A DNA stretch of 64,000 nucleotides from Neoarius graeffei (lineage: Eukaryota; Chordata; Actinopteri; Siluriformes; Ariidae): positions 50,699,297-50,763,296 of the forward strand of contig NC_083571.1 of assembly GCF_027579695.1 (NCBI RefSeq), given 5' to 3'. Below are positions 18,000 to 53,939 of the stretch, piece by piece. Each line of letters starts with the position of its first letter. The first letter of the stretch is position 1. Made by a program: the position numbers and the translations under genes. Below the pieces are notes generated by a model. It had not been told where the DNA came from. It saw only the letters and a program-made list of their open reading frames with translations, and searched no databases.

Positions 18000-18253
18000 T
18001 TACAGCTTTTGTTTCTGTGACTGCCTCTTTGCAGCTATTCCTCGGTTTCTGACAAAGTCCCTTATATTTTGCACTGTTCGTTGTTCTAAAACAGGGTCTT
18101 CTGCCAGCTTACAATGACTACATTCGTTTTTTGTGGCCAGTTTTCCTTTACTTATGTGATCCCTGAAATATCGCATGACTGCAGCAACCTCAGCCTTAGA
18201 CCACGGTTTCTTCAGCAATCTTCTGGACTCATGTTCTTGACCAGTGTCTTGTC
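18000..18253 (-). CDS. Last exon: SANT/Myb-like C-terminus of recombinase gene
   Basis: The acceptor 'tttaccag' precedes 18253 and the exon ends with TAA at 18000-18002. Entry phase 1 fits the donor of the 54-nt exon at 20816. The residues include KKPWSKAEVAAVMRYFRDHI, a Trp-containing helix resembling a SANT/Myb-like segment. Then ECSHCKLAEDPVL and TVQNIRDFVRNRG follow, and a basic end. This C-terminal block is common in teleost proteins that also carry the zinc fingers and recombinase fold seen upstream, as far as I recall. Its role is probably DNA or chromatin binding (inference). Confidence 0.75.
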
Positions 18254-18669
18254 CTGGTAAATACACAAAGTGAAAAAATATCACACAAAACACAATGAGT
18301 TGGCCAGTTGGAGCAATCACAACCTTAGTTGAACTAATGCCACAGATTTCTGTTAACTTGTTTGTGATTTTTTTATTTTATTTTCAGTTGACTACTCACT
18401 TTATTTGATTTTACACCTAGATTTGGCCAAGTCTTCATATTAGCTGCAGCTGACTTTAAGGTATACAAGTACCGTACATTAAGCACTGTACAAAGCTCTT
18501 AAAGTACAGTGAGGATGCTTTCAAAAACAATGCATAGCATGTAGTTTTTAATTCAACACTTAATTCTATACAAGGTGCAGTAAGCAGAAAAAGACCTATA
18601 AACCAATCTCTGGCACCACTACAGCAGGATCAGTTCTCCTTAGTACACCTGCACACAGTTTTCAGGTAC

Positions 18670-18677
18670 CTCTAGAA
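18670..18677. repeat. 8-bp hAT target duplication
   Basis: 'ctctagaa' here is repeated at 20322-20329, flanking the hAT element. Confidence 0.9.
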
Positions 18678-18949
18678 CAGAGGTGGGCAAACTACGGCCC
18701 GCGGGCCACATCCAGCCCGTTGGCGTTTTTAATCCGGCCCGCGGAAGACAATCATATAAACACGATTGAGCAGATCTATAAACTATAAGCGTCAGTGTTA
18801 CCACGTAGACAGGTGTTCTAGAGATCCGTCTTTCCAGTCAGTCGTATTCACGCGAGATTACATTTGCAGAGTGGTGCAGCGCGTGCCATGGAAGTCATTC
18901 TGGCGCCCGTGCCACCGATGATCTCGAGAACACAGGATAAAACTTTACA

Positions 18950-19195
18950 ATGAGTGGTCCTAAAAAAAGAAAAGTGGACAGTGAGTGCAGGGTGTTCAAT
19001 AAAGAATGGACAACTAAATATTTTTTGCTGAAGTCCGATCAAAGGCTGTATGCCTTATTTGCAAAGAAACCGTTGCAGTTTTAAAGGAATATAACATCAA
19101 ACGGCACTTTTCCTCCAAGCATGCTAATTATGCTAACAACCAGTCAGCGCAAGCACGGACGAATACAGCTCAGCGGTTGCTGAGTGAATGTGAGT
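18950..19195 (+). pseudogene. hAT transposase BED-finger exon (frameshifted)
   Basis: From ATG at 18950 the frame reads MSGPKKRKVDSECRVFNKEW, starting a BED-type DNA-binding segment. Near 19025 a one-base shift at a T run moves the reading to VCLICKETVAVLKEYNIKRH, which carries the C-x2-C and, with FSSKH, the His pair. A donor-like 'gaatgtgagt' at about 19187 suggests the first exon of a GTF2IRD2/ZBED-like hAT transposase. Downstream catalytic parts are absent. Confidence 0.7.
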
Positions 19196-19987
19196 ATTAA
19201 CACTTTCTCTTTTTAAAACTATGTTGGAGCTGTAATAAGATGGTAGTCACATGTTTACAGACATAATAATATAAAAAGTATAACTCTTAGTAATTTTGGT
19301 TGTCGTGGGTGGCTGCTGTAGTGCTGGTGTTTGTTTTTAAGTACCATGTGCTTTTGGGTGTCTGCTCCGCCCCTCATTTATGTCCCTGCCTGCTATTATA
19401 GGTGTATTATGAGCAGCTGACCTTGCTTCTGCTTATATCTGTTCCTGGACTTTTGCCTGTGGAGGTTATTCTGATCTATGAGTGGCCTTTTGGAATATGA
19501 AAACCTGTTTGGAACCTGTGTTTTGATTTTTTGAGGACTGGAAATATTTCAGTGAGTGACTTTGAACCTGAAAACCAGTTTGGAGTTTTTTGCTTTTTTG
19601 AGCTGTTTTGTTTGATTTTGTGGGCTGGATGGATCCAGTGCCAAACCACTGAACTGCAAACATGTTGGCATGGTGTGGTACCCAAACTGTTGGACTGCAA
19701 ACATTTTGGAATGGTGTGGTACCTCTCCTACTAATGGTGGTTGGTTGTACTGGCAGGCTGGAAGTGGATGGTTAAAAAACAAAACAAAAAACACTCAGGT
19801 GTAAATCTACAAGTTCAGTGAAATGTACAAAAATGATATGTACTGATATGTAATTTAGTTCAATTTAATGATATGCAATTTAGTTGTATGTATAAAATGA
19901 TACAAATATACAAATACACTGGCATCCTACTCATCCTGGCAGCTCAAAGATGTAATTTAAGAATTAAGTGTGCTACTTTTCTTACCA

Positions 19988-19989
<2 letters not shown>

Positions 19990-21641: not shown

Positions 21642-23694
21642 CTTCAATTTCAGTCTCATCCAGTGATTTCCCCTGCAGGCTGGAAAGATGTCCTTTCTCC
21701 ACTGACAAAAGCAGCTTGGAAATCTTGGCCAGCTGTGTTGTGGGAACTGGTAATCTGTAGAAATCACGGTGAACACGGATGTCGTGACCCAGGAAATCTG
21801 CAACCTGGTCAAGTTCGTTATTTTTTAAATTAAGGACTTGTGAGAGTGTGGCCACATGTTTCCGAAGTTGTGTCGACCTCAGGTGCTCAGGGTGCTTTGC
21901 CCCACACTGGTTTGCATGAACATGCAAACAATCTTGTCCTCTGTAATTGGTCACTGATTTGGGTCTTGCAAACAGGAAGACATTTGTCTCACAAACACCG
22001 CACTCAGTCCTTTCACTGGTCAGTAGTGAGAGAGCATCCACCATGCTTGGGGTGAGCAGAACTGCAACCTTTCTTCCCCTTTTTCCCATGATTTCGACAC
22101 GGCTGAAATAGTTGCAGAGTCTTTGTTCAGTCTTTGACAACCCCATGGCAACATCTTCATGGAGCTTTGTGTTGTCTCTTTCATAAAAACTTCTGAGGCG
22201 CATTTTTGAAACTTCCCCAGGACGTCTCCGATTGAACACAATGATTTGAGCAAGTGTAACTTTTGCAAGTTGAGCGTAGTTCTGAGCGGTGGCTTCCTCC
22301 TTCAAGTTGCAAAAGGCACTTTCTGCAGCTTCCTTAAGGTACCGGTGAAGAATCTGAACATCTTCAGTGAAGGGTAATGTTGATGGCTTGTTGTACTTTG
22401 CATCGCTCAGTGTGTTCAAGGCACTGTGAGACACCAACTCAGACCACTTGAACTGTACAATTTCTTGAATATATCAGTGGACTTGATCAGTTCTTCATCT
22501 TCTGCCATGAGGGCCCGACAATGGATGATGTCACAGATTTTGTGTAGTGTATGTCCTAATTTCAGTGCAAGGCTTTTTGTTGTGTAGGAATGTTTTTCCT
22601 CATCAAAACCTGAAACTTTCTTCACTGCTTGCACAACTCTCTGGAAGTTAGCAGGTTTAACAGCCTCTTCCACGTTATGAACTGAGAATTCTGTGCGCAG
22701 ACATAGTAACAAACGCCCAACTTCACGGAGCTTCTGTCGCATGTATTCATACTTTGTAGGGTCTTGTCCATGTTTGTTGTACAGTGACAGGGCAAACTGA
22801 ATAATAGAAAAGTCATTTCGCACAACTGAAGCAACCTCATCCTGTTTCATGGCAGTGAGGAGCTTCCACACTCCACTTGAGATCTGATGACAGGATGCAG
22901 ACTCTAGAGCAGCAGCCAAACCCAGTACTTTGGTTCTCCCAGGTTCTTTAGTCAAATCTTCATTTTCTGGCTTGCAGGGGCATCTGCGGACATGTCTCCA
23001 GAGCTCTTTCCGAAGGTACATCCCTTGGCAGTGTATACAGTGAATAAACCTTCCTCCCACTGCTTTAGCCTTTGGTCTTCTCTTCACTTTCAGTGATCCC
23101 GTTCCACCTTGTAAAACTGCAGTGTTATGTTTAAAGTTTCCCTTATTCCTCATTTTCTCTAATAATATTTTACGCTCTTTTGAGCATTCAGGGAGTGTAA
23201 AAGCATGTACAATTTCAGCATGTGTAGTGTGTGTTTTCAAGTGGTGGGAAATCTTACTTTGTGGCTTACCACAAATGTAACAGTAATTTCTATTACTTGT
23301 CAGATATGCTGATTCTTGGTTATTACGCTCTGCTCAATCCTGTGGCTTTTCCTTTGATAACTTTTTGATAGAATTTGATGATTCTGATGTTTCAGCAGCA
23401 TTGAAAACCATGTGATCTTCAAGAGTTGTGCTGTGCACAACTGAGATGCTTGTATCTGACCCATAAGATGTCCCATCATCTGGTATTACTGGTTTTATGT
23501 GAATCTGTTTAGCTTTCATCTGATGAGGCAGAAAGGGGATGCTTGCATCTGAATCTTCATTGTCCTCATTTTCTGACTCAGAGTCTGGTATGCAATCCTC
23601 ATCAGACACGTTCCGAAGATCATCTGATACTTGATCCAGTTCTGAATGTGATGCGCTATCCTGATCTGACAGAGGTTCATCCCCAGAACATTTA
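21642..23694 (-). pseudogene. Zinc-finger plus tyrosine-recombinase core exon
   Basis: Read from 23694 down, an acidic segment (PLSDQDSASHSELDQ, DSESENEDNEDSD) ends at TGA 23336-23334. The same frame goes on into a C2H2 finger (CYICGKPQSKISHHLKTH, about 23286-23233). Then comes a C2HC finger (CIHCQGMYLRKELWRHVRRC, about 23050-22990) and a long helical region. Near 22445 a one-base shift moves to the frame of the recombinase core: Arg in FNRRRPGEVSKMRL, then STQLRKHVATL, then LGHDIRVHRDFYRLP with Tyr nine residues after His. The HxxR position reads TQLR, so one of the usual catalytic His residues is Thr. The exon ends at donor 'gaag|gtttgt' in phase 1. The fold is that of tyrosine recombinases (Crypton/DIRS-like or domesticated); activity is doubtful. 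Confidence 0.75.
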
Positions 23695-24363
23695 GGCCCT
23701 GTCCACATGGCAACAGATTCAGGTGAATCTGATAAAATTGTTTATCATTTCGGCCTGGCGTCCACACGGCACCGGCATTTTGGGTGCCCCAAAATGAAAT
23801 CTTTTGAGAACGGGTTCCAGAGTGGAAAAATCTGGCAACGGCGCCATTGCAAAGTCGTCTGGATGAGTAGAACGGATTTGTTTACGATGTCACAACCACA
23901 TGACTGTGAGTGCTTCACGCCGGGTAGAAGTGTAACGAACTTGATGCGAGTTGTCAACAAATAAAAAGGGAAAAAAAAAAGGAGCGATCTCACCTCTTCA
24001 GATGTTGGTTTAAGTCCGACAATACATTCCTCAAAAAGGGCATAGAAGAACAAAGTAATCCATCAACGTGTAGCATTCAATTTATTCCGGACCATTAAAG
24101 AATTCTGGAGGATATCAGAATGTTGGCGTACCGGCTTCCATCTATCCCCATTCATTCCTCTTTCCACATCTCCATTCAAAAAACGAGCAGAAGGTGTGTG
24201 CGTGTGACAGTGACAGGGTGAGTGACACGGAAGAAGCTAGGCTCATGCTCGCCCTGAATTTCTCTTAAAGTGAAGGCAGAAGAACGTTCAGCGCCTGGCC
24301 AGGCTTTCTATGTATTAATTTACATAGACGTTTTAATATGAAGTATAAATAAGTGTCTTAGAC

Positions 24364-25522
24364 CAGAGATTCTCAAACTGTGGTACGCGTACCACTAGTG
24401 GTACGCGGGCTCCATTCTAGTGGTACGCCAAAGAATCACTTAATTAAATATAAATTTTAAAAAGTGAAATACTATCCATAATATCCGAATGGATGAAAAT
24501 ATCTTATCAACCGATGACAAGAAAATGAAAGGAAATACAAATTAAGTTAATAATTTAAAAAAGCTTGCAAGTGCTTCTGGGTAGCCATACGTAGCGTACG
24601 TACGCATTCCCGCCGGTTCCGCTGACAGATGGTTATCCGCCATTGGTAGACTAGGCTGTGATGGGAAAAGGTGGAGGTGGCTTTGCTAATTATGACGAGT
24701 ACGACAAAATTACTGTCGTGGCTTAAATCCGCGAATGGGAGCGTGGATCAGGAGAGAGGGAGAACTGAAGAGGACGTGTGTGAGCCGAGCGCAGATGCTA
24801 ACGACAGTGGCAAAACCAGCCCCAGAACTGGTAGCAAATGGCAGAAACCAGTAAGGAGGAAGTATGACGAAAAATACATAAAACTGGGATTCATTTGGAG
24901 CGGGACAGAGGAGCTGCCCAGGCCGCAGTGTGTTGTATGCGGGGACGTTCTGAGCAATGAGTCCATGAAACCGTCGCATCTCAAACGGCATCTTACAACC
25001 AAACACACAGCACTAAGGGACAAACCAATGGATTTTTTTTTACGAAAAATGATGAACTGAAGCAGTCCAAGTCCACCATTTTGTCCTATGGTACACCTGT
25101 AGCCAAAGCACAGGAAGCTTCATATCGTGCCAGCCTCCTGATCGCCAGAGCCGGTAAGCCGCACACAATCGGGGAACTGCTGTGTTTACCATTAGCCAAA
25201 GAGATGACACGTATCATGTGTGGAGAGAAAGCTGCCAGAGAGTTAAACTTTTATGTGCAATTAATTTTATTTGATTCATTATTTAAGGACAGTGTTTTAT
25301 TTTCCTATATTTAAACACAGTGTTACTGTTCAAAGTACTGTGTGTAATGTTACAGTGGCCAACAATATTAAATATACTTGTTAAATAAAACCTCCACCTT
25401 GTTTTTAATGAATACTTAGACCTACTACGCTACTGTATTTTAATGTTGGTCATTATGGTGGTACTGGGAGAGCCAAGTATTTTCTGAGGTGGTACTTGGT
25501 GAAAAAAGTTTGAGAACCACCG
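24364..25522 (+). mobile_element. hAT transposon (ZBED/Buster-like), truncated
   Basis: Ends CAGAGATTCTCAAACT and AGTTTGAGAACCACCG are imperfect inverted repeats. An exact 8-bp duplication 'tcttagac' lies at 24356-24363 and 25523-25530. It is inserted in MITE M copy 1. Only the N-terminal part of the transposase gene remains. Confidence 0.9.
24671..25255 (+). pseudogene. ZBED-like hAT transposase N-terminus
   Basis: The frame from 24671 has a basic linker (KWQKPVRRKYDEKYIKLGF), then a BED-type zinc finger with CVVCGDVLSN and MKPSHLKRHLTTKH, and ends at a stop near 25060. A one-base loss in an A run near 25045 causes that stop. The expected continuation (KAQEASYRASLLIARAGKPH, then LPLAKEMTRIMCGEKAA) is open in another frame to about 25250. 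The hAT catalytic and dimerisation domains are missing. It resembles the ZBED5/FAM200 (Buster) group. Confidence 0.75.
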
Positions 25523-25816
25523 TCTTAGACAATAGATACTATTTTACGCTACTGATTAATAATCAAAACTTTATGTGGCTGATGCTACAGAAAAAGGGGT
25601 TTATGCGCATGCGTAAACCCCTTCTTCTATTGTTCTGGTGTCTCCGACGGGACAGTCTTACAGCGCACCTAGAGGTGTGGCATGTGTATTGCATCATTTT
25701 CAGCAAGCGTTGCGTTGCCATATGTACCTGAAATTTTACTGATCCGTTGCCCATGTGGACGCGATATTGAGAAAAAAAAAAAAAAATCTCGTTGCCGTTG
25801 TCATGTGGATGTAGCC

Positions 25817-25833
25817 TTAGAAAGCTGTTGCTC
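25817..25833 (-). CDS. 5' stub of the acidic/recombinase exon
   Basis: After acceptor 'acatttcag' the exon starts GAG CAA CAG CTT TCT and is cut by MITE M copy 1. It resumes at 23694 after the duplicated TAA. Without the MITE and one TAA the frame runs straight into the acidic segment, so the pre-insertion exon was intact here. Entry is phase 0, matching the exon at 25921-25982. Confidence 0.65.
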
Positions 25834-27113: not shown

Positions 27114-27185
27114 CTTTCCACTGTTGACAACTGGATCCATTTCACTTGGACTAGTGAACTGATTCTGGTTATTTTCAGTCGTCAT
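27114..27185 (-). CDS. 72-nt beta-type mini-exon (unit 3)
   Basis: Acceptor 'ctattttag' and donor 'ggaaag|gtaaat'. Only phase 0 is open: it starts ATG ACG ACT GAA (MTTENNQNQFTSP) and ends in GK. The same start and end are seen in the exons at 27865-28005 and 38005-38146, so these are tandemly duplicated exons. Confidence 0.55.
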
Positions 27186-28586: not shown

Positions 28587-29118
28587 TTAGGTCTTTTTTT
28601 GTTGTATCTTCTGTTTTATGATGCGCCAAATGTTTTCTATGGGTGAAAGATCTGGACTGCAGGCTGGCCAGTTCAGTACCCGGACCCTTCTTCTACGCAG
28701 CCATGATGCTGTAATTGATGCAGTATGTGGTTTGGCATTGTCATGTTGGAAAATGCAAGGTCTTCCCTGAGAGAGACGTCGTCTGGACGGGAGCATATGT
28801 TGCTCTAGAACCTGGATATACCTTTCAGCATTGATGGTGTCTTTCCAGATGTGTAAGCTGCCCATGCCACACGCACTAATGCAACCCCATACCATCAGAG
28901 ATGCAGGCTTCTGAACTGAGCGCTGATAACAACTTGGGTCGTCCTTCTCCTCTTTAGTCCGAATGACACGGCATCCGTGATTTCCATAAAGAACTTCAAA
29001 TTTTGATTCGTCTGACCACAGAACAGTTTTCCACTTTGCCACAGTCCATTTTAAATGAGCCTTGGCCCAGAGAAGGCATCTGCGCTTCTGGATCATGTTT
29101 AGATATGGCTTCTTCTTT
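28587..29118 (-). pseudogene. Tc1 transposase, C-terminal part
   Basis: The frame holds the DDE catalytic region: Asp in LWSDESKFE, Asp in [11 protein letters not shown] and Glu in [11 protein letters not shown], a D,D-34-E Tc1 pattern. The start near 29096 is artificial, because the N-terminus lies on the far side of the DIRS insertion at 35484-35822. The catalytic residues are all present, so the element may have been competent before it was split. Confidence 0.85.
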
Positions 29119-29310
29119 GAACTATAGTTCTATTTCGTTTCTACTGACCGCCAGAGGCGGTGCTTTCAGCACATGGATATCCATCACATGAACGTGCAGG
29201 TCGAGTAATAGTAACAACAAAGTCACGTGTGACCTGGGTGACGTCACCCCGTGACCCCGGCATAAAAGACCGGTAAACCCAGGAAGTGACCTCTTACATC
29301 TTCTCGCGTT
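29119..29310. repeat. DIRS left inverted terminal repeat
   Basis: Its reverse complement is found at about 35280-35455. Shared blocks include 'gtgacgtcacccaggtcac' (right arm), 'ggataTCCATcacatgaacg', and the end 'ctgaccgccagaggcgg'. Confidence 0.85.
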
Positions 29311-29460
29311 TGCAGGTTGCGAGTTGGATTGAAATTTGGACAAAGCGCTGTGGTAGTTTCGTTACCCGTAGGGTTGGGGCTGTGCTTATGCACCCTCCAA
29401 GAAACTGCGCTAAGTCCACCAACTCTTTTCTTCTTGTCGTTATATTCGTATTGATTTATT

Positions 29461-30420
29461 ACTCCGTAAGCTGAGCGCTCTCGCTCGGTGGAGTTAGCTG
29501 ATTAGCCCTCCGGGGCGGTGTCCTCACCGCTGGAGGCCGGCTTGTTTTCGCTTCAGGTAAGCGGGTTTCATTTATTTAAATTAAGCGGCGTTCCTCTCGC
29601 CGCTGTTTATCAGTTCTGCGGCGCTCGGCGCCTACCCTTGTTAATATTATTAACCACCTTGTTTTGTGTAGCCTCGCCGCCGGCCTGTTCACAGGCCGGC
29701 TGTCTTGTGTGTTGTATTCGTATTGATTTATTACTCCGTTAAGCTGAGCGCTCTCGCTCGGTGGAGTTAGCTGATTAGTCCTCCGGGGCGGCGTCCTCAC
29801 CGCTGGAGGCTGGCTTGTCTTCATTCAGGTAAGCGGTTTTCATTCATTTAATTTAAAGCGGTGTTTCTCGCCGCTGTTTATCAGTTCTGTGGCGCACTGC
29901 GCCTATCTTTGTTAATATTATTAACCGCCTTATTTTGTGTAGCCTTGTCTCCGGCCTGCTCACAGGCCGGCGGTCTTGTGTGTTGTATTGTTTGTTACTC
30001 CGTAAGCTGAGCGCTCTCGCTCGGTGGAGTTAGCTGATTAGTCCTCCGGGGCGGCGTCCTCACCGCTGGAGGCCGGCTTGTCCTCATTCAGGTAAGCGGT
30101 TTTCATTCATTTAATTTAAAGCGGTGTTTCTCGCCGCTGTTTATCAGTTCTGTGGCGCACTGCGCCTATCTTTGTTAATATTATTAACCGCCTTATATTG
30201 TGTAGCCTTGTCTCCGGCCTGCGCACAGGCCGGCGGTCTTGTGGGTTGTATTCGTATTGTTACTCCGTTAAGCTGAGCGCTCTCGCTCGGTGGAGTTAGC
30301 TGACTAGCCCTCCGGGGCGGGGTCCTCGCCACTGGAGGCTGGCTTGTTGTCGCCCAGGTAAGCGGTTTTCATTCATCTAAATTAAAACGGTGTTTCTCGC
30401 CGCTGCTTATCAGTGCTGTG
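29461..30420. repeat. Tandem leader repeats, about 265-271 bp
   Basis: Four units start with 'actccgt(t)aagctgagcg' at 29461, 29732, about 29997 and about 30260. Each carries short hairpins such as 'ggccggc' pairs and 'gagcgctctcgctc'. Further units recur at about 31440 and 31614. They precede the gag-like start and may be a promoter or leader array. Confidence 0.85.
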
Positions 30421-30568
30421 GCGCACGGCGCCTATCCTTGTTAATATTCCCGACCACGGGTGTGTTCGCCCGGTCGTTTTTCATTACCGCCTGATTGTTT
30501 ATTTTGGGCTGCTTACTTGGGGGTGTTCTCGCCCTATTTTTTAAGTTCCCTTCTGCCAGCCAGGCGTC

Positions 30569-31430
30569 ATGGACCTCTTCTCTCGCTGCGCCAACTGCCG
30601 GTCCCCCTCGAACTGGAGGACGGCCACCGCGAGTGCCCCTCATGCCTGGGTATTGATCACCTGCGGCAGGGGCTGACGGACATGGCCTGCGCAGACTGCA
30701 TGTGCCTGAGTGTGACTGCGCGGACCGCCAGGCTGGCTCGGCTGGATTCTCCGTCTGACATCCCCCGGGCCTCGGGGGGACAGGACACGGTGTCGGCTGC
30801 AGCAGCGGGGCCCAGCAAGCGCCGTGGGCTCCCCCACACGTCTTCGCTTCTAAGGCGAAAAAGAAGCGCTCGGGCGATTTGGCTCAGAAGGTGGAGGTGA
30901 TGTCCACTGAGCTGGAGGAGATGAAGGCCCTGCTGGCGAATCTTCAGCCTCTGCCACAGGGGGCAGTGTTCCCGCAGCCACCCCTTCTGCCTGGCAGCCC
31001 GACTGTTCACCATCACCACCGCTTCTGTCACCGGCCGTTGATGCACGCGGCCTGGATGAACTGTCGATCCGGGCTTCGGAGAGCTTTGACTGCGGTGGGT
31101 CCGATGGTCACGGCTCCACCTCTCCGGCCGGTTCCCAGGCCACCAGCCATGGCACCGTGGCAGCGTCGGAAGGCGGATGCTCATCCATCCAGCCAACGCT
31201 GAGGGCTGCATTGGCCCGTCTGGGGTTGGACACGCCCCGGTGGCCCAGCATCAGAGCGCTTCCTTCAGAGGTCCCACATAGCCTTCCTCGTTGTCTGTTC
31301 CGCCCTCGGCCTCATACATCGAGGAGTTACAGAGGTGTTGGGCGGACCCTAGATGCCTTCCCACCTCCCTAGTGACTGCAGGGCCCTGGCGGCAATGCAG
31401 GACACCCCTACCTATGGCCTCCTGCAGATG
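30569..31430 (+). pseudogene. DIRS gag-like region, first copy
   Basis: ATG at about 30569 opens a short frame with CANC. After a shift, the frame from 30460 reads EDGHRECPSCLGIDHLRQGL and MACADCMCL, with paired cysteines like other DIRS Gag N-termini. A coiled-coil-like stretch (VEVMSTELEEMKALLANLQP) follows from 30891 in another frame. It ends where leader repeat sequence restarts near 31435. Confidence 0.6.
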
Positions 31431-31434
31431 CCCA

Positions 31435-31915
31435 ACATTGAGAAGCGGCTTTCATTCATTTAAATTAAAGCGGTGTTTCTCACCGCTGTTTATCAGTTCT
31501 GTGGCGCACAGTGCCTATCCTTGTTAATATTATCAACCGCTTGTTTTGTGTAGCCTTGTCTCCGGCCTGCTCACGGGCCGGCTGTCTTGTGTGTTTTATT
31601 CGTATTGTTTGTTACTCCGTTAAGCTGAGCGCTCTTGCTCGGTGGAGTTAGCTGACTAGCCCCCCGAGGCGTGTCCTCGCTGCTGGAGGCCGGTTTGTTG
31701 TCGCTCAGATAAGCGGTTTTCATTCATTTAAATTAAAGCGGTGTTTCTCGCCGCTGTTTATCAGTTCTGTAGCGCACGGCACCATCCTTGTTAATATTCC
31801 CGACCACGGGTGTGTTCGCCCGGTCGTTTATTTTTTATTTCCGCCTGATAGTTTATTTTGGGCTACTTACTTGGAGCGTTCTCGCCCTATTTAAGTTCCC
31901 TTCTGCCAGCCAGGT
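31435..31915. repeat. Second leader repeat block inside DIRS
   Basis: Repeats the leader array and the 'cccgaccacgggtgtg' block seen at 30449, now before a second gag start near 31918. This indicates an internal duplication or recombination between element copies. Confidence 0.75.
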
Positions 31916-31917
31916 GT

Positions 31918-32560
31918 CATGGACCCCCAGACGCTGGAGGGGACGAGCGCGGCATCATGGGAGCTGTGTGACGCGGCTCCAGGCCTTTGCCTACTCGTCG
32001 CGGGAACTGGGCCGGCTGATGTCGTATCTCACCCTCGGCCGCCAGCAGATATGGCGGGCACAGTCCCCTCTGGCCGAGCCCGACCGGCGTGTGCTGCACT
32101 CTCTCCCTGTTGTCCCCGGGGAGCTGTTTGGCGAAGCCACTCAGCAAGCCCTGGATCGGAGTGCCCAGGTCATCTAGGCGTAACAGCAGTTCGCTGGCCC
32201 CCGCCAGGCCCACCACCATGGCAATGCTGCCCAGTCCTTCAGGGGGCCCACACCGACTCTGTCTCGGCCACGCACCCGCCAGGAGACCAGACGGGTTGAT
32301 GACTTTCACCGCCCCACCACCTCCCGGACCCGCGGTGCCGCCCCCTACACCCAGTCCACTCCTCGTCGCCCCATGGTGACCGACGGGGGTGCTCTGGACG
32401 GCGCTGACATCAGCGCGCCGGCGGTCGGCCGCTTTTCCAGCGAACAGCTCCAAAGCTGGAGAGCGTTGACCCCTGGGTGCTGGTGACCCTCACCGAGGGT
32501 TACCGCATCCAGTTCTGCCGCTGTCCACCACGTTTCATGGGGTCAAACACACCACCGTGA
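31918..32560 (+). pseudogene. DIRS gag-like region, second part
   Basis: In the frame to 32177, FAYSSRELGRLMSYLTLGRQ and EATQQALDRSAQVI resemble the later part of DIRS Gag. It follows a duplicated leader and a second ATG at 31918. Frames are broken. Confidence 0.55.
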
Positions 32561-33340: not shown

Positions 33341-33343
33341 GAG

Positions 33344-37480: not shown

Positions 37481-37803
37481 CCCGGCGTGAAGCACTCACA
37501 GTCATGTGGTTGTGACGTCATCGTAAACAAATCCGTTCTACTCATCCAGACGACTTTGCAACGGCGCCGTTGCCAGATCTTTCCACTCTGGAACCCATTC
37601 TCAAAAGATTTTGTTTTGGGGCACCCAAAACGCCAGTGCCGTGTGGACGCCAGGCCGAAACGATAAACAATTTTATCAGATTCACCTGAATCCGTTGCCG
37701 TGTGGACAGGGCCTAAAGTAATGCCACAATCAACCCCACCAGGAAGAAGGTCCTAATTAACTGTATGGACCTCCTAAGTCACATTTGGGTGGTTCACTGC
37801 TTA

Positions 37804-40480: not shown

Positions 40481-40608
40481 CCTACAGTACCAGTCAAAAG
40501 TTTGGAAACGCCTCTAATTCAGTGGTTTTTCATTATTTTAAAATTTTCTGAATTGTAGATTAATACTAAAGTACGGAGCCGTAGAGGGGACATGGTGAAT
40601 AAAAAAAT

Positions 40609-40970
40609 AAAGCGTGGGAACGACTTATAAGGCGTGTGCACGAGATATTAATGCGCGCGCACGAGTTATAACCCGTGCGCACGCTTTGCGTTAAGGCGTG
40701 CGCTCGGGTAGTTAAAAGTGAGGGGACGAGTTACAAATCGTTCCCTCGCTTTCATTAAAGCGTGTGCACGAGATATTAAATCGTTCCCTCGCTTTCATTA
40801 AGGCGTGAGCACGAGATATTAATACGTGCGCTCGAGTTATAAAGGCGTGCGCACGGGTTATTAAAAAGTGAGGGAACGTCTTAAAACGCGTTCCCTCGGT
40901 TTATATCCAAGGCGTGGGAATGATATCCTATGTCGTTCCCTCGATTTATTAAAATATTCCCACAATATCC
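40609..40970 (+). repeat. Phased subterminal array, left arm
   Basis: About 17 consecutive units averaging about 21 bp alternate two core types, GTGYGCAC/CTC-like ('gcgtgcgcacgggtt', 'gcgtgtgcacgagata') and GTTCCCTC-like ('cgttccctcgctttc'). They are separated by AT-rich 'attaa' linkers. It is repeated inverted at about 45650-46010. Confidence 0.8.
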
Positions 40971-41033
40971 TTGTTTTCGTTGATCTCGTTGCCTACACAC
41001 ACACACACATGTACACACAGGCTGTAGGTCACC

Positions 41034-41797
41034 ATGGTAGCTCCGGAAATACTAGACGCTATTCTATTATATTTTAATACTGGACTCAGATACACAGAAA
41101 TCCTGGATGCACTTGCATCCCAATATGGCTTTATTATAAGTCTGAGACACCTCAAGAGAGTTCTGAGAGAGAATGGGCTTCGCCGTCGTAGTTTTTCTGA
41201 CCTAGGAACGACTATAGATTTCATCATCAGCCAACTAAATAGCCCAGGTCGCCTCCACGGGTACCGCTGGATGCACGCAAAGTGCCTGGAACATGGCATT
41301 CAGGAAAAAACAGAGGATGTACGGATTATCCTTCAACTACTGGACCCAGAGTGTGTTGCGCTACGCCGTCGTCGTACACTTCAGCGCAGACAGTACTTTT
41401 CCAAAGGACCCAATTTAATTTGGCATGTCGATTCTTATGACAAACTAAAACCGTTCGGAATCTGCATAAACGGATGCATAGACGGGTTTTCCCGTAGGAT
41501 CGTCTGGCTGAAAGCCGCACACACAAGTAGTAACCCGCGAGTGATTGGCAGTTACTATGTGGATGCAGTGGAGAGGTTAGGTGGATGCCTGAGAATCGTA
41601 TGAACTGATTTTGGAACTGAGAATGTGACTGTGCGAGACATCCAGAAGTTCTTCAGGCGTGACGGAGAAGACGACAGGGCAGGGGACCGAAGCTACATCT
41701 CCGGGGCCAGCACTGCAAATCAGCGTACTGAATCTTGGTGGGGCCAGTTGCGTAGACAAGGGGCTGAATACTGGATCGAGTTCTTCGGAGAGCTGAA
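41034..41797 (+). pseudogene. DDE transposase of palindromic element, plus copy
   Basis: Starts at ATG 41034 in the TIR (MVAPEILDAILLYFNTGL). A helix-turn-helix-like N-terminal part follows (SLRHLKRVLRENGL), then an integrase-type core: Asp in LIWHVDSYDKL, Asp in TDFGTENVTV and Glu in NQRTESWWGQL. A TGA at about 41601-41603 (after GCLRIV) interrupts the frame just before the second Asp; the frame is open on both sides. After ELKNF at about 41800 the DNA turns into an inverted copy of itself, so the C-terminus is lost. Confidence 0.8.
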
Positions 41798-42318
41798 GAA
41801 CTTCTGGATGTCTCGCACAGTCACATTCTCAGTTCCAAAATCAGTTCGTACGATTCTCGGGCATCCACCTAACCTCTCAACTGCATCCACATAGTAACTG
41901 CCAATCACTCGCGGGTTACTACTTGTGTGTGCGGCTTTCAGCCAGACGATCCTACGGGAAAACCCGTCTATGCATCCGTTTATGCAGATTCTGAACGGTT
42001 TTAGTTTGTCATAAGAATCGACATGCCAAATTAAATTGGGTCCTTTGGAAAAGTACTGTCTGCGCTGAAGTGTACGACGACGGCGTAGCGCAACACTCTC
42101 TGGGTCCAGTAGTTGAAGGATAATCCGTACATCCTCTGTTTTTTCCTGAATACCATGTTCCAGGCACTTTGCGTGCATCCAGTGGTACCCGTGGAGGCGA
42201 CCTGGGCTATTTAGTTGGCTGATGATGAAATCTATAGTCGTTCCTAGGTCAGAAAAACTACGATGGCGAAGCCCATTCTCTCTCAGAACTCTCTTGAGGT
42301 GTCTCAGACTTATAATAA
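41798..42318 (-). pseudogene. DDE transposase, inverted partial copy
   Basis: Reverse complement of 41135-41655. On the minus strand it encodes the same segment (RHLKRVLRENGLRHRSF to RTDFGTENVTVRDIQKFF). At the position of the plus-copy stop this copy has Arg. It starts inside a nested hAT and lacks the N-terminal TIR part and the Glu region. Confidence 0.85.
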
Positions 42319-42673
42319 ACAGAGGTGTCAAAAGTATTACCATTTATTACTCAAATAGAAGTATAGATACTATGGTTTAGAAATACTTTTCATGAAGTAA
42401 AAGTATCAACTGAAGCTTTTTACTCAAGTAAAAAGTATACTGATTTCTAAACTACTTTAAAGTACAAAAGTAAAAGTAATGAAAGAGGAAAAAATGCTAT
42501 TAAGGACAAAGGCGCAGCCTAGAAGTCCACATACAGTCCATTCTCCTGACCCATTAAAATGTTTCATGGAGCACAAGTAATAATGACTTGTTGTCTGTAA
42601 GTGTTGTAATGGTGTAAAACATCATACCTCAGAAGTAAGTTATCAATACATTTTTATTGAAAATGTATATATT

Positions 42674-42675
<2 letters not shown>

Positions 42676-42710
<35 letters not shown>
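42676..42710. repeat. (AC)n microsatellite
   Basis: About 17 AC units inside hAT-A. Confidence 0.95.
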
Positions 42711-42713
<3 letters not shown>

Positions 42714-43717
42714 TCGACCACATCACCCCATCCTACTGATCCACACAGATGGAAAAAACAACTACAGTAATACGATTCATTTGAAAAGACTGCAGCATTG
42801 TAATGTCCAAAATATTGTATAACGCAATATTTTTGCAGTATGCTGGCAATCATTTTGTGTCCAAAGTTGCATTGCATTCACTGTCTAAACGGCAGTAATA
42901 ATACAGTATTTAAATGCTATGAATGAATGAATGAATGAATACTACACTAACACTACTGTAAAATTACAGTTTTTTTCTTTTTCATATGGGACGTGCAGTA
43001 GAGGCAGCAGGTTCCAGTTAAAATGTAAGAAAAACACTTTCTCATCCCTACTAGTTACAGGCTCACCGAGAGAAGTCAACAGAATGTTTGTGTTCCAGCA
43101 ATGCGAGGCTGAACACAGGCGAGGAAAGAAAGGGCGGCCGCTGGAATGCCGACACACTATAAGCTAATATAACGTTTACTAAGCTAAGACCTGTCACTTT
43201 ACTCACTAACCCCCACCAAGATACCATAACTGCGTTTGTAAACTTAACCTGACTCAGAAAAGAGAATGCCGCATGGTTCGTGGGGGGGGGGATTCCACTC
43301 CTGACAAACGAACGAGAGCCCGCAATTTACTAATGGTGTTGAAGTCAGAGCTCTGATTGCTGTGTGCTTGGAGCGCCCTGAGTGGCAGTTTATTAGGTGG
43401 ACAAAGTAATATAAAGATTGGCGCAATGAAATGCAAGTAACGAGACTATTATAACAGGGTCTCTGCACATTTCTGACCAGCAAAAATAATACTTTTTAAG
43501 ACCATTTTAAGACCACTGAGTATAAAAAAATAAGACCACTACCGCGGAACAAATACGTACAGTAAAAAAAAAAGCACACTCTAGGTTAAGTTCAAAGCAT
43601 TTTTTTTTTTATAAAAAATGTGCATCTTCAGTTTACAAAACAGAACATTAGCTGCCTTCTCAATATTTTAATAGTAGGGTACTGCTGTAAACAAACAGTG
43701 AGGAAACAAATTGATCT

Positions 43718-44038
43718 TCAGTTAACAAAACAGAACATTAACTGCTTTCTCAATATTTTAATAGTAGGGTACTGCCATGAACATAAACAGTGAGGAAACA
43801 AGGAAGTTTGACTACTGATCGAACTGCCTCTGGGGACTGTTGTTGCCCGACTAGCAGCATAGCGCATATGCTTTTCCCCTTTCGAGTGAGCGTCAAGGGC
43901 TTTACAGCCCATTGTTGTCAACTTGATGTCTTTCCGACATACCTTACATCTCGCTTCATATTCTGAAGTTGCTGTTGTTAGCCAACTTTTGTATTTTGGC
44001 TCCTCAAGCCACTTGTTACTAAACTTACACTTCCCCAT
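43718..44038 (-). pseudogene. hAT-B transposase N-terminal zinc finger
   Basis: From ATG 44038 it reads MGKCKFSNKWLEEPKYKSWL, then RCKVCRKDIKLTTMGCKALD and HSKGEKHM, a C-x2-C...H-x4-H finger common at the start of fish hAT transposases. After MRYAAS the frame runs into repeat sequence. No catalytic domain. Confidence 0.75.
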
Positions 44039-44102
44039 CTCCGTTCATGTTCAAGTTCAACCACTTCTTCCTCGTCTGCTCTACTCTCAATGGTTCTACT
44101 AC

Positions 44103-44903
44103 CAGTGTTGGGCACGTTACTTTCAAAAAGTAATTAGTTATAGTTACTAGTTACTTTTCCCAAAAAGTAACTGAGTTAGTAACGGAGTTACTTTGTCATA
44201 AAAGTAACTAATTACCAGGGAAAGTAATTATTCCGTTACATTTTGTTCCCCCTCAAAAAAAAATCAAATTCAATTAGTGTAATCATAATAAAAGTGAATG
44301 TTAAATGTGTTTAATGACTGAAATGGACACTTAACAGAACCAATTAGTAACATTATCTACACTATATTAATATTTTGTGGGACAATGTGAGATAAGACAT
44401 CTATCAAATGTAATATATTTCTGTAGTTATTAAAATTGTTACTAATTACTGGCCACTGACGAGGACAAACGCCTTGTTCCTCGACATAATGTGCACTGCA
44501 CGTAAACACTCTTGCCTTTTATTTCAAGTAATGAAAAGTAATGGCTGTATTTCCAATGTGAAAGCGCAGTGCTGGGCTGACCGCTCGCCATCGCTGGGTC
44601 TTCCGATTGAAAGAGCGCACAGTAGTGCAGTAGGCGTGGCCTACCTACGTATGTTGTCCAAATCTACTCTGATTGGCTTACTGTGCCGTTGTCTCGTGTC
44701 TCCCCGCCCCACACGAAAGCAGAGTAAAGAAAGGCTGAACGAGCAGCGTGCCAGATTAAAACAGCTTTAATAAAGTAACGCATAGTATTTTATTGTAAGT
44801 AACGGGAACGGCGTTATAACGATGTAAAAAGTAATTAGTTAGATTACTCGTTACTAAAAAAAAGTAAAGCCGTTTATTTCTAACGCCGTTATTCCCATCA
44901 CTG
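44103..44903. mobile_element. hAT-C MITE, innermost element
   Basis: Ends CAGTGTTGGGCACGTTACTT and inverse, with exact 8-bp duplication 'tctactac' at 44095-44102 and 44904-44911. AGTAACT-type subterminal repeats. A common non-autonomous fish hAT by appearance. Confidence 0.9.
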
Positions 44904-45388
44904 TCTACTACATGGATAAAAGAACACACTGCCCCCAGTGGCGTGGTTCCTGCGCTATGAGAACTAGTGCTAGACACACAACGGCTCTTGTGCTACTTGT
45001 TCAGCATCTTGATAACAAACGACGCTGGTTGAATAAATAACGTTAGCGCGGAAAAAAAAATCCAGACATATGTTTTTTTTTTTCATTTACCGTAGGCTAC
45101 CCGGATGAAATTTAATACCTCCCATGTGAAATTTAATACCATAGCTCAAAAAATAGCGAAATATAATGCTTTTTAAGACCTTAAAAAACACACATTAAAA
45201 ATAAGACTTTTTAAGGATCCGCGGAGACCCTGTATAAACGTAACGAAGTAAAAGTAAATGCTTGAAAATGTAACGAGTAGAGATAAAAAGTAGGTTGAAA
45301 AATTATTACTCCAGTAAAGTAGAAAGTATCAAAATTTCTACTTAAGTAAAGTAACGAAGTATTTGTACTTCGTTACTTGACACCTCTG

Positions 45389-45628
45389 TTGCCTACACAC
45401 ACACACGTACGCACAGGCTGTAGGTCACCATGGTAGCTCCGGAAATACTAGACGCTATTTTATTATATTTTAATACTGGACTCAGATACACAGAAATCCT
45501 CGATGCACTTGCATCGAGGATTTCTGTGTATCTGAGTCCAGTATTAAAATATAATAAAATAGCGTCTAGTATTTCCGGAGCTACCATGGTGACCTACAGC
45601 CTGTGTGTACGTGTGTGTGTGTAGGCAA
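45389..45628. repeat. Near-perfect palindrome, about 120-bp arms
   Basis: Centre between 45508 and 45509. Arms match base for base apart from about one or two differences near the GT/AC run. The same protein start (MVAPEILDAILLYFNTGLRY) reads outward on both strands. Confidence 0.9.
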
Positions 45629-46809
45629 CGAGATCAACGAAAACAAGGATATTGTGGGAATATTTTAATAAGTCGAGGGAACGACATAGGATCATTCCCA
45701 CGCCTTGGATATAAACCGAGGGAACGCGTTTTAAGACGTTCCCTCACTTTTTAATAACCCGTGCGCACGCCTTTACAACTCGAGCGCACGTATTAATATC
45801 TCGTGCTCACGCCTTAATGAAAGCGAGGGAACGATTTAATATCTCGTGCACACGCCTTAATGAAAGCGAGGGAACGATTTGTAACTCGTCCCCTCACTTT
45901 TAACTACCCGAGCGCACGCCTTAACGCAAAGCGTGCGCACGGGTTATAACTCGTGCGCGCGCATTAATATCTCGTGCACACGCCTTATAAGTCGTTCCCA
46001 CGCTTTGTTATTTTTTTATTCACCATGTCCCCTCTACGGCTCCGTACTAAAGTCATTGACATTATGAAGAAATATATATGGAATTATTTGGTAAGCAAAA
46101 AAAGTGTTAATCAAACCAGAATATGTTTTATATTTTAGATTCTTCAAAGTAGGCACCTTTTGCTTAGATGACAGCTTTGCACATCTTGGCATTTTCTCAG
46201 TCAGCTTTACGAGGTAGTCACCTGGAATGGCTTTCAGTTTACAGCTGTGCCTTGCCAAGAGTGAATTTCTTGACCTCTTAATGTGTTTGAGACCATCAGT
46301 TGTGTTGTGAAGAGGTAGAGTTGGTATACAGTGAATGGCCCTATTTGAGTACTGCTCTAATCCATATTATGCCAAGAACTACTCAACTAAGTAAAGAAAA
46401 ACGACAGTCCATCATTACTTTAAGAAATGAAGGTCAGTCAGTCTGAAAAAGTTTGGGATGAGTTGAACTGCAGAGTGAAGGCAAAGCAGACGACGAGTGC
46501 TCAGCACCTCTGGGAACTTCAAGACTGTTGGAAAACCATTTTGAGTGATTACCTCATGAAGCTGATTGAGAGAATGTCAAGAGTGTGCAAAGCTGTACAG
46601 TAATCAAAGCAAAAGGTGCCTACTTTAAGAATCTAAAATCTAAAACATATTTTGGTTTGATTAACATTTTCAAGTTTACTAAATGATTCCTTACGTGTTG
46701 CTGCATAGTCTGGATGACTTCAGTATTCATTTACAATGTAGGAAAAAAATTTTAAAAATAAAACCATCGAATTTGAAGGTGTTTCCAAACTTTTGAATGG
46801 TACTGTATA

Positions 46810-48737: not shown

Positions 48738-48761
48738 CTTGCATCTCCATGGCCAGTCTGA
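48738..48761 (-). CDS. 3' stub of the second SET exon
   Basis: After MITE M copy 3 the exon resumes with TCA GAC TGG CCA TGG AGA TGC AAG and donor 'gtgatc'. It encodes SDWPWRCK, the usual end of the fish KMT5A-like SET core (DxWPWR). Confidence 0.75.
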
Positions 48762-49961
48762 GGCCCTGTCCACACGGCAACGGATTCAGGTGACTCCGAT
48801 ACAATTGCTCATCATTTAGGCCTGGCATCCACACGACACCGGCGTTTTGGGTGCCCAAAACGCAATCTTTTTGAGAACGGGTTCCAGAGTGGAAAGATCT
48901 GGCAACGTTGCCGTTGCGAAGTCGTCTGGATGAGTAGAACGGATTTGTTTACGATGACGTCACAACCACATGACTGTGAGTGCTTCACGCCGGGTAGAAG
49001 TGTAACGAACTCGATGCGAGTTGTCAACAAATCCTATAACTTGGTTCATGAAACGCGCTTACAAAATATTTTCACTGTGAATATTTATTGTGTAATGGTG
49101 CAAAGTGAGAGAGAGAGAGAGAGAGAGAGAGACTCTGCCCTTAGGGCAGAGTCAATCCCGCCAGCAAAAATAGGGAAAAAAAGGAGCGATCTCACCTCTT
49201 CAGATGTTGGTTTAAGTCCTACAATACATTCCTCAAAAAGGGCGTAGAAGAGCAAATTAATCCATCAACGTGTAGCATTCAATTTATTCCGGACCATTAA
49301 AGACGCTGCCTTCCGCGTAGAATCATACGTCATCCTCGCCGCCATATTGGATAGGTCAAAGCGGAGAATAAAGATTCATGTGCTGCGTTTAACTGTACCA
49401 ACATGTTTACTATCCAAATGAGATCACATGGGATTACCTTTCACAGGTGAGAAACAACAAATTAATCCATCAACATGTAGCATTCAATTTATTCCGGACC
49501 ATTAAAGACGCCGCCTTCCGCGTAGAATCATACGTCATCCTCGCCGCCATATTGGATAGGTCAAAGCGGAGAATAAAGATTAGCTGCGTTTAACTGTACC
49601 AACAGGTTTGCCGTCCAAACGAGATCACATGGGATTACCTTTCACAGGTGAGACTGGAAAAATACTTTTCATTGTATTTGGTCATTATAATGTAATTTTA
49701 CGAACAGATTTTCCTGACTTTGTGGCTAATATGAAGTCTCGCGCATAATAGTTTATGCGCATGCGTCCTTACTTCTTCCATTGTTCTGGTGTCTCCGAAG
49801 AGACCATCTTACAGCGCCCCTAGAGGTGTGGCATGTGTATTGCATCGTTTTCAGCAAGCGTTGCGTTGCCATATGGACCTGATATTTTACTGATCGTTGC
49901 CCAGTTGGACGCGATATATTTTTAAATAACATCTCGTTGCCGTTGTCGTGTGGATGTAGCC
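48762..49961. mobile_element. MITE family M, copy 3, inside a SET exon
   Basis: 1,200 bp with ends GGCCCTGTCCACACGGCAAC and inverse of GGCTACATCCACACGACAAC. The 3-bp duplication TGA lies at 48759-48761 and 49962-49964. It carries a (GA)n run at 49107-49132 and two direct copies of a THAP-exon segment. Removing it and one TGA restores an open SET exon. Confidence 0.88.
49255..49648 (+). pseudogene. Tandem duplicated THAP-exon fragments in MITE
   Basis: Two direct repeats of about 190 bp (about 49255-49447 and 49458-49648) each carry a segment matching the P-like element's right end and THAP exon. CAAFNCTNMFTI and HGITFHR are readable in the first and AAFNCTNRFAV in the second. Both end at the donor 'cacag|gtgaga'. 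Both have lost the ATG. Confidence 0.65.
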
Positions 49962-50133
49962 TGAGTCTCTGTAATTATAGGTGATCTCCTCCCCTGGACT
50001 TGTGTCTCTTATAGCAAATAGACACAGATGGGGCTTCCCTTCCACTCTCAAGTACTTCATCTTGGCATTAGGGTTTATATGGTCATCATTAACAAGTCTT
50101 CCAAGAGACCCATCCTCACTGGCTAAATCAACA
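49962..50133 (-). CDS. SET domain, C-terminal half (exon split by MITE)
   Basis: Acceptor 'cttttgtag' at 50134-50136. Entry phase 2 completes a Cys codon with the previous exon (LWC-VDLASEDGSLG). It contains GRLVNDDHINPN, the equivalent of the SET NHS motif that binds S-adenosylmethionine and forms the pseudoknot, then PHLCLFAIRDTSPGEEITYN, with the Tyr of the catalytic region. The family transfers methyl groups from S-adenosylmethionine to lysine, in KMT5A to histone H4 Lys20. By eye KMT5A-like; substrate here is unknown. The exon is cut by MITE M copy 3. Confidence 0.8.
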
Positions 50134-50278: not shown

Positions 50279-50441
50279 CACCACAGTGTCCCATTAAATT
50301 GGAACTCGAACATGAACACCTTAAGGCAGTCATGGTATATTCTCCGTCTCCTCTCGCTTGTCTGCTTGCTTATTAGTTCACCTTGATACTCCAACAGGAA
50401 GCCACTTTTTGCAAATGGAGTGGTAGTGAAGATGCCACGAC
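50279..50441 (-). CDS. SET domain, N-terminal half
   Basis: 163 nt, acceptor 'gttaactag', donor 'gtggtg|gtgtgt', entry phase 1, exit phase 2. It reads RGIFTTTPFAKSGFLLEYQG, then ELISKQTSERRRRIYHD and FMFEFQFNGTLW. The G-R-G-I-F block (Gly supplied across the junction) is the SET motif I that helps bind S-adenosylmethionine. LLEYQGELI is the conserved following strand. Together with the next exon it makes a full SET core of normal length. Confidence 0.8.
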
Positions 50442-51490: not shown

Positions 51491-51493
51491 TGA

Positions 51494-52974
51494 GGCCAAA
51501 AAAAAGTGTGTTTTTTTCCGGTTACGTAGATTTCAAAACTAGGGTCGGTAGGCAGGCTTTTTTTTTTTTTGAATTTTTTTTTTCAAGATGGCTGCCATAA
51601 CCTATATTTAGACAGGAATAATTTCACAAAATATAATGAATTTCTTTGCAGGTCACCTGAGTTACCACCTTCTGATGAATCTGATGCAGCATGAGACACC
51701 TTTTAACATGAATTTTTCTGTAAATATAACAGCTCAATACACCATGAGAGAGCGAGCAGCCCCGCCCCTCTCTGCTCCCTGAGTGCAGCTCGTCGCCTTG
51801 GTAACGGTGCAGGGAAAAGACACAATATAACAAGCAAAGAGCGCTTTTTCTCAGAGTTCCCTCTCCTCGAACAACGCTGATTTACACGGAAACGAAAGGA
51901 GCTATTCACAAAATTCTTTCACATTGAGTGCTACAAGGCTCCCATGAACACAATGTAATTTTTTTGTCCCTAGTGTAAAAAACGTGGACACTAGAGCGAG
52001 TTAAAAACAAGTGACTTTTCTGATTTTGCAGTAAAAGTGCTGCCACGTTTATAATGTGAGTCTATGGGAGAGCGCGGCTGTCCTCTCCTCACTTTCAGGC
52101 TTCTCATTCAAAAACTATAAATCCTATCGCTCAGGTAGACACTTGTCTTGATTCACACAATGTGTGACTACAACTTTTGAGAAAATTGTGTGTGTAGAGT
52201 GAAAATTGTGGCTGAGAAAACAGTTTAAATGAGAAAGTTAGAGCTTTTTTTTTTCAAGCCCTCTACACTTTAAACTCCTGAGCCACACTGGTGTGTAACG
52301 CCATAGACACCCATTATAAAGTCTGAATTTCTCCAGATTTGCTCATGGTGTTTGATCTGTGACTGATCAAAAAGTATAGAACCCAGCAAAAAAGCTGAAT
52401 GCCAGATCCACACAGGAGAATTTTGTCTCCGTTTTAAAGTTTGAATCATGTCTCTAGGTGAAAGACAAAATAAGCGTTCTCTCTGCTTCTGTTCCCTCCG
52501 ACGGCCCCGACACACTACTGCCTCTGCCGAGTGTGCGCGCACACCGCATGTTGGGGCCGCGGATGAGTTCCTCTCCCCTGATCAACAAAGTCTGCGGGGA
52601 ATTTGTGGTTATTATTGGTACAAACAGCGCGAATCACAACTTAAATGAGTGCGGTTCAGTTTGACATTATTGTCAGTCCGTTAGATAAACATTTAATTTT
52701 ATTAAAATCGAAAATTAATATTTAGAGCCTGTGGGCTACAAAAATAAGTCATTAAAGTAGCCGGCTGGACTTAATTGTGTAGTCGGCTGTATGGCCGGCA
52801 GCCGGCGCTTGTGGAAAGCCCTGATTTTCCCAGTGAGTGACAAAAACTTCCGGTTCACGCGGTTGGGTTATATGTAAAAGTCGCGACTGGGGAAAAAACG
52901 AAAAAAAAAGTTTAGGGTCGGGCGGTACGGATTAGGGTCGGTCGGGTAACCGGAAACACATTTTTTTTTTGGCC
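51494..52974. mobile_element. MITE with GGCC...GGCC ends and TGA duplication
   Basis: Left end GGCCAAAAAAAAGTGTG followed by TCCGGTTAC, right end GTAACCGGAAACACA then TTTTTGGCC. A 3-bp duplication TGA lies at 51491-51493 and 52975-52977. 1,481 bp, no transposase. It lies in the first long intron of the SET gene. Confidence 0.75.
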
Positions 52975-52979
52975 TGATA

Positions 52980-53820
52980 AAGAAATTAAAGTGTTAGTCA
53001 GGGATAGAGAGGAGCATGCACAGCCTATCTATTAAACAACTGAAAGAACATAGAACAAAATAAATCAATTCAACACGCTGCATATTTACAGGGTAACAAA
53101 TAAACCTGGGTTTAAATTCACACCATTTCAATAAAAGCTAAATTCCTAAGACTAGGTTTTTATTATGCCCAAAAATGCCAAGTCTTACTTCCGTATCCCG
53201 CTTCTACGCGAGATTATGAGAAAGATGTCTCGAGACTTTGGAGCTTTTCACCGTTGTGAAGATCTCCGTGAAGTTTCTTCTGTAGAAAGCGCAGAGAATT
53301 TCTTGATCCAGCGTGCGGTCGCTCGTGATGAAAAGAAAGTCTCTGATCAAAGTAATATGCACAGCGCTTCAATCAGGAGGAATTCTGGTCACTCCTAATT
53401 ATAAATTAACTGCTTTGAGCTGCAGTTGTACGTACTTAATGAATGAAACCGGTTGTAACTCATCCGAGTTAGATCGCGCGATTCTGGATTTTTACCGTGG
53501 CCAAAGGTAAACAAAGAAATCACGCTAACTCGTGGATCTTGCAAGAAAGAGAAAAGAAAAGACGTCTTTATCTGGTTTGCTCACGGAGCGAGCCTTCCTC
53601 CCTGTGTCCGTGTTGAATCACGGCGCTGAAAGAGGAGGAAGTGGAAGCGTGTTCCGTTACTTATGCTTTCCTGTAGGATGTGACGTTGGTGATCCCGCCC
53701 CCGCGTGACGCAGGTCAACGCGGAAGTTGGCTGATGGGAAATGTAGTTTCTTAAAGAGACGGACTGAATGTACCTACACATATTTAAAGTTTCGGCATGA
53801 ATGAAAAAATCAGAGGATTC
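52980..53820. other. CpG-rich region with SBS-like motif
   Basis: At 53590-53760 the DNA is CpG-rich with 'cccgcccccgcgtgacg' (Sp1/CRE-like) and, on the minus strand, 'actacatttcccatcag', close to the ZNF143/THAP11 (SBS) element, plus 'acttccgcg' (ETS-like). It may be a promoter. Plus frames at 53165-53510 have a donor-like end but no domain. Confidence 0.45.
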
Positions 53821-53827
53821 AACTGAC

Positions 53828-53939
53828 CTTTGAAGGCATTAATGTATTTTACATCGAGTCCCACTTTGTCCCTTCCATTGCGCACATAAAATTTTGCATC
53901 TTCTTTTGGATTAATGCGTCTTCGCCTTTTCATGTTTTC
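53828..53939 (-). CDS. Basic exon N-terminal to the SET domain
   Basis: Acceptor 'catgccag', donor 'tcaaag|gtcagt', entry phase 0, exit phase 1. It reads ENMKRRRRINPKEDAKFYVR, then VGLDVKYINAFK, and joins in frame to G-RGIF of the first SET exon. The basic and KYINAFKGRGIF wording is what I expect just before the SET core in fish KMT5A-like proteins. An in-frame ATG lies at codon 3, so translation could start here or in an upstream exon. Confidence 0.75.

Follow-up and report, generated by a model that had tools for sequence, protein, structure and literature searches.

Does the stretch of Neoarius graeffei DNA analyzed here (64,000 nucleotides of contig NC_083571.1, positions 50,699,297 to 50,763,296, hereafter the window) hold a working gene in which a histone-methyltransferase domain is joined to a transposon-derived recombinase? 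The first-pass annotation of the window had described minus-strand exons with good splice sites, running from a KMT5A-like SET domain to zinc fingers and a tyrosine-recombinase (YR) core, and had proposed a single composite gene. Our analysis supports this joining for a family of related loci and contradicts it as a working gene at this place. It holds a dead copy, probably of a dispersed family resembling a transposon; the gene of this family would be spliced from SET exons, linker exons, a large exon encoding an acidic part, zinc fingers and the YR, and a C-terminal exon. The multi-copy nature of the unit and its mobile-DNA-like behaviour had been missed.

Exons were located by minus-strand translation and splice-site inspection across the window. 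Their order on that strand is KMT5A-like SET exons, a linker exon, a Cys-rich exon, the large exon and the C-terminal exon:

53828-53939, minus strand: SET exon 1, with an ATG and a phase 1 donor, from translation and splice sites
50279-50441, minus strand: SET exon 2, from translation, splice sites and a Pfam SET match (E 5e-4, just under the curated cut-off)
49962-50133, minus strand: SET exon 3, first part, ending at an insertion, from translation and a Pfam SET match (E 1.2e-9)
48738-48761, minus strand: remainder of SET exon 3, with a phase 0 donor; its first 3 bases are a duplicated TCA
27114-27185, minus strand: linker exon of 24 codons
26865-27062, minus strand: Cys-rich exon, an open frame out of phase with the linker exon
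21642-25833, minus strand: large exon, overall span, interrupted
25817-25833, minus strand: opening bases of the large exon after its acceptor, uninterrupted in 4 sister copies
21642-23694, minus strand: main part of the large exon, encoding the acidic part, C2H2/C2HC-like fingers and the YR core, with a phase 1 donor
18000-18253, minus strand: C-terminal exon with the stop codon

The exons described earlier are real and stand in the order given, and the SET exons have consensus splice sites throughout. SET exon 1, in which Pfam found nothing, has counterparts in a copy on contig C11 and in a copy at 52.33 Mb of contig C3 (C3:52.33 Mb). The linker-exon peptide of the latter is identical to that of the window. 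The phase clash between the exons at 27114 and 27062, which had been named as the weak point of the composite gene, is genuine and recurs in identical form in the linker and Cys-rich exons of that copy. An exon partnering the Cys-rich exon in phase was sought and not found, and no further linker exons were established between 48.7 and 27.2 kb of the window. In the source genome (2.34 Gb, 38 contigs), the Cys-rich exon has 12 matches, ten of them stop-free and 84-100% identical; the other two are weak, and a TGA interrupts one of them. The C-terminal exon has 31 matches. This last exon had been called SANT-like, a description that no significant Pfam match bears out, the best being BEN (E 0.07, not significant).

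The window copy is dead and unable to encode the protein. Two exonic insertions, one stop codon and a change of frame rule it out as a working gene; they are listed here with a further copy of the inserted repeat:

48762-49961, minus strand: 1.2-kb repeat inside SET exon 3, with TCA duplicated on both sides
23695-25816, minus strand: 2.1-kb insertion in the large exon, of the same family as the SET exon 3 repeat, with TAA duplicated
23334-23336, minus strand: in-frame TGA in the large exon
22416-22473, minus strand: interval containing the change of reading frame in the recombinase
36256-37717, plus strand: third copy of the exon-splitting repeat family, in a presumed intron

Exon sequence picks up again beyond both exonic insertions, the larger of which also harbours other foreign DNA at about 24.1-25.6 kb. 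The repeat in SET exon 3 may be Harbinger-like, as judged solely from the 3-bp duplications and the ends. Eleven window-type copies were examined for damage, seven at C3:50-52 Mb (including the window) and one each on C2, C14, C17 and at C3:15 Mb. The large-exon insertion and the TGA were both present in 7/7 copies of the C3:50-52 Mb group and absent from 4/4 of the others, which are damaged by stops or frame changes elsewhere. In the C3:52.33 Mb copy, SET exon 3 is uninterrupted and SET exon 1 contains a stop. The shared insertion and TGA indicate that the ancestor of the window copy was dead before its local multiplication. Errors of assembly could account for single-base frame changes, but fit the shared insertion and stop less easily.

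The association of SET and YR recurs across the genome. Searching with the YR core gave 73 matches, which were merged to 46 loci. SET matches were collected with the Pfam model (at least 68, with 150 of 365 candidates scored), the window exon (39) and the C11 exon (41). Overlapping SET matches were merged and one match was kept for C7:61.2-61.4 Mb, and the pairing count used 70 SET places (39 family-type, 31 other Pfam). A SET match lies upstream, on the same strand and within 60 kb, at 24 of the 46 YR loci (within 30 kb at 23 of these), against 0.04 on average and at most 2 in 2000 random placements of equal numbers; 26 loci have any SET match within 60 kb. The 24 pairs are not all independent, as six make up the C3:50-52 Mb cluster. 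Furthermore, the identities of SET and YR to the window are correlated, with rho at 0.73 across 19 pairs and at 0.71 across the 15 that were left once the cluster was thinned. This calculation left out three of 22 pairs, namely the window itself and those at C3:62.6 and C7:96.4 Mb, the latter two having no family-type SET identity.

We also compared nonsynonymous (pN) and synonymous (pS) differences among five SET exon-3 copies and nine recombinase copies. Between lineages, SET exon 3 gave pN of 0.17-0.27 against pS of 0.79-1.01, and the YR gave pN of 0.12-0.46 against pS of 0.65-0.90, mostly saturated. Recent pairs had pN/pS ratios of 0.8-1.7, on few changes. The excess of pS over pN between lineages, together with the ratios of recent pairs, shows that SET and YR were both once under amino-acid constraint and that recent copies drift.

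Two loci met in these searches are of separate interest. At C7:61257978-61399585, SET matches cluster locally in open frames of 559-925 aa, which lie on both strands and seem to represent a separate SET gene family. At C11:24514134-24518906, a 1753-aa open frame has several matches to the fingers and one to the recombinase in tandem, and is possibly a host gene built from the SET-YR family.

Near-identical copies are dispersed over many contigs. At C11:34.9, C4:54.0 and C22:13.1 Mb, the SET+YR unit is common over some 12 kb and 95-99% identical in the pieces compared, with the exception of a high-copy repeat present in C11; within the C11 piece L039:5400-8200, the C4 match was seen through linker repeats alone. 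Farthest to the left, the flank of the C11 copy is part of another family, repeated locally. The right edge of its similarity to C22 resembles another repeat in C22, so that no end is fixed. Five further copies (C3:69.3, C7:22.9, C8:5.66, C18:1.47 and C24:36.3 Mb) are 98-99% alike in the SET and linker half, carry one common insertion of ~0.37 kb and diverge from C11 at the identical base before the large exon. The genome search gave no finger or YR match in any of the five, where masked letters may play a part. Each has a match to the C-terminal exon, and 4/5 also resemble C11 in its right part (91-97%); in four copies the two shared parts are separated by about 7 kb of other sequence. A third group consists of YR-only copies at C16:14.05, C24:59.80 and C26:52.62 Mb, which are 99.6-99.8% identical over 3.8 kb, have open frames of 747-750 aa and no SET upstream within 60 kb, and look recently mobile. 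The window-type copies on C2, C14, C17 and at C3:15 Mb have 94.6-97% DNA identity to the window. Recent movement would be the simplest reading of such near-identical dispersed copies.

The high-copy repeat of the C11 copy is inserted near its C-terminal exon (C11:34923989-34924719) and matches both strands at most of the places where it occurs.

Splicing of SET to YR is supported by the C11 copy, in which SET exon 3 ends in a phase 0 donor, the large exon begins at a phase 0 acceptor, and six homologous linker exons of 105-108 nt lie between them, each with AG and GT, in whole codons and stop-free. SET and YR were presumably made as one protein. These linker exons, the recurrence at 24 of 46 loci and the correlated divergence of the two parts are the grounds on which we retain the composite SET-recombinase gene of the first-pass annotation for the family.

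The solved structure that best matches the SET part of C11 is KMT5A (SETD8), with an E of 2.8e-28, the next differently named entry being at 1.5e-14. For the recombinase part, an alignment of 11 family rows upholds the proposed R, R, H, Y core. The first Arg is kept in 9/9 rows covering the position and the second in 10/11, and the His and Tyr are invariant (11/11) with 9 residues between them, the usual spacing for tyrosine recombinases. Pfam Phage_integrase matches this part with an E of 6e-4, below the curated cut-off. This weak score is not evidence against the assignment, because the recombinase of a DIRS-type element in the window scores no better on the same basis (E 0.003). Searches of solved structures, whether by the single recombinase sequence or by a profile, gave no match, nor did NCBIfam. 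Pfam contains a DUF3504 model, and no Pfam match to DUF3504 was obtained with the recombinases at E up to 1 or at 0.1.

The DIRS-type element is one of the transposons that lie between the exons:

29127-35443, plus strand: DIRS-type retroelement (reverse transcriptase E 2e-20, own tyrosine recombinase), in a presumed intron
28587-29129, minus strand: Tc1-like element enclosing the DIRS-type retroelement, its other half recognized by eye at 35466-35837
41028-41603, plus strand: integrase fragment

The first-pass annotation had found no opposite-strand gene between the exons, which proves incorrect: the DIRS-type element at ~29.1-35.4 kb and the integrase fragment are on the plus strand, and these opposite-strand genes are transposons in presumed introns. 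A retroelement origin (DIRS/Ngaro) of the family recombinase was considered and ruled out, since the sole reverse transcriptase between the exons sits in this separate plus-strand element, which has its own recombinase.

Several observations weigh against a mobile family with a spliced SET-YR gene. No ends of the family's own, terminal repeat, target duplication or empty site were seen in the stretches read, and the copies at C3:50-52 Mb resemble segmental duplicates, because their similarity extends to both limits of the 20 kb compared. SET and YR are able to exist separately, as 22 of 46 YR loci have no upstream SET within 60 kb and 16 of 36 merged window-exon SET matches have no YR within 60 kb. 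The large exon opens with an ATG at C8:43.36 Mb and on C11, and the YR could therefore be made alone. The C11 frame changes just after this ATG, and a fully intact SET+YR copy was not found among the copies read. Finally, the NHS motif of KMT5A, located at the methyl-donor site, is replaced by NDDH or NDEH in 5/5 SET copies read, which makes enzyme activity of the SET part doubtful and tethering about as likely a role as methylation.

Part of this evidence would fit a host multigene family, assembled a single time from a SET gene and a captured recombinase and then spread by segmental duplication, now mostly decaying and never mobile as a unit through its own enzyme. The copies read retain their introns, no element edge was seen, the C3:50-52 Mb copies have the look of segmental duplicates, and both parts show constraint between lineages. 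Segmental duplication accounts poorly for a near-identical unit at eight places on seven contigs besides C3:50-52 Mb, for the unrelated, locally repeated family that forms the left flank of the C11 copy, and for YR-only copies on three contigs that are almost identical to one another. We therefore regard a host family as unlikely.

The unit could also be mobile and carry SET and YR as two adjacent, separate genes that are never spliced together. The ATG at the start of the large exon, the existence of SET-only and YR-only copies and the phase clash ahead of the Cys-rich exon in the window would all agree with such an arrangement. Two independent genes are hard to reconcile with a SET exon 3 that terminates in a donor and has no stop, with six phase 0 linker exons that run up to a phase 0 acceptor, and with an order and strand that are kept in all 24 pairs, and the arrangement appears quite improbable. 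Chance adjacency of unrelated exon-like pieces, suggested by a window crowded with transposons and by the 28 kb between its SET and YR cores, is ruled out by the recurrence at 24 of 46 loci against 0.04 expected.

If the family is a mobile one with a spliced SET-YR gene, its protein might work as follows. The recombinase would break and join the element's own DNA through its tyrosine, and the fingers would supply DNA specificity, helping to locate the element ends. The acidic part and the C-terminal exon may touch partners. The KMT5A-like SET part may methylate or bind nucleosomes, and could thereby steer the complex on chromatin or counter silencing of the element. Tentatively, the family may represent a vertebrate transposon lineage that carries YR and KMT5A-like SET in one protein, in which histone marking or nucleosome binding steers the place and time of movement and from which SET-only derivatives still spread.

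Capture of SET genes by transposons is already known. According to PMC12730594, SET histone-methyltransferase genes were taken into the HarbingerS and MuDR families of Phytophthora. Like the family described here, these are transposons with an acquired SET gene, whose presumed targets are epigenetic marks (PMC12730594); unlike it, they have DDE transposases and live in oomycetes, whereas here a tyrosine recombinase takes part in an apparently spliced fusion in an animal genome. SETMAR/Metnase likewise fuses a SET domain to a transposon enzyme, but is a primate host gene with a mariner-type DDE transposase and a single fusion, as opposed to a dispersed family. The SET partner here is a recombinase, and the window's DDE sequences belong to insertions of their own, which sets the locus apart from SETMAR and HarbingerS.

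Cryptons are tyrosine-recombinase DNA transposons found in animals among other hosts, as the family here would be; their animal members match DUF3504, and Crypton recombinases have been recruited into zinc-finger host genes (PMC3212892). In contrast, the family here has no DUF3504 match, and the accessible text of PMC3212892 mentions no Crypton with a SET part. Short direct repeats at the ends, without terminal inverted repeats, mark a Crypton. DIRS and Ngaro elements differ in that the recombinase here has no reverse transcriptase in its own element. KMT5A (SETD8) is the closest SET family by sequence, and departs from the SET copies here in its NHS motif and in not being joined to these other domains. 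The available portions of two reviews (PMC6431247, PMC9406493) do not name an element with SET and a tyrosine recombinase. Within the open-access literature, as far as its accessible text goes, we found no such element, the closest being HarbingerS/MuDR (PMC12730594); the tyrosine-recombinase case was thus not found in print.

Should the family prove mobile, it would provide a tyrosine-recombinase element in which enzyme and histone-methyltransferase-like domain move together, and chromatin steering by a transposon would therefore become testable on defined copies. Some of the 'KMT5A-like' gene models that presumably exist in fish genomes might then be pieces of mobile DNA. The window also illustrates that a striking composite gene model may turn out to be a relic, with its breaks legible in the sequence.

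Other features of the window are of separate note. Rfam gave no match. Copies 87% identical to each other at 4200-6085 and 61711-63530 contain a long open frame with a membrane-protein-like look and no Pfam match. Inverted copies of an integrase-like gene and of clustered short tandem repeats, 97-98% identical, occupy 40570-46048, between the exons. Finally, a retroelement at 11127-16072 is flanked by 92% identical direct repeats and is unusual in that its integrase precedes the reverse transcriptase.

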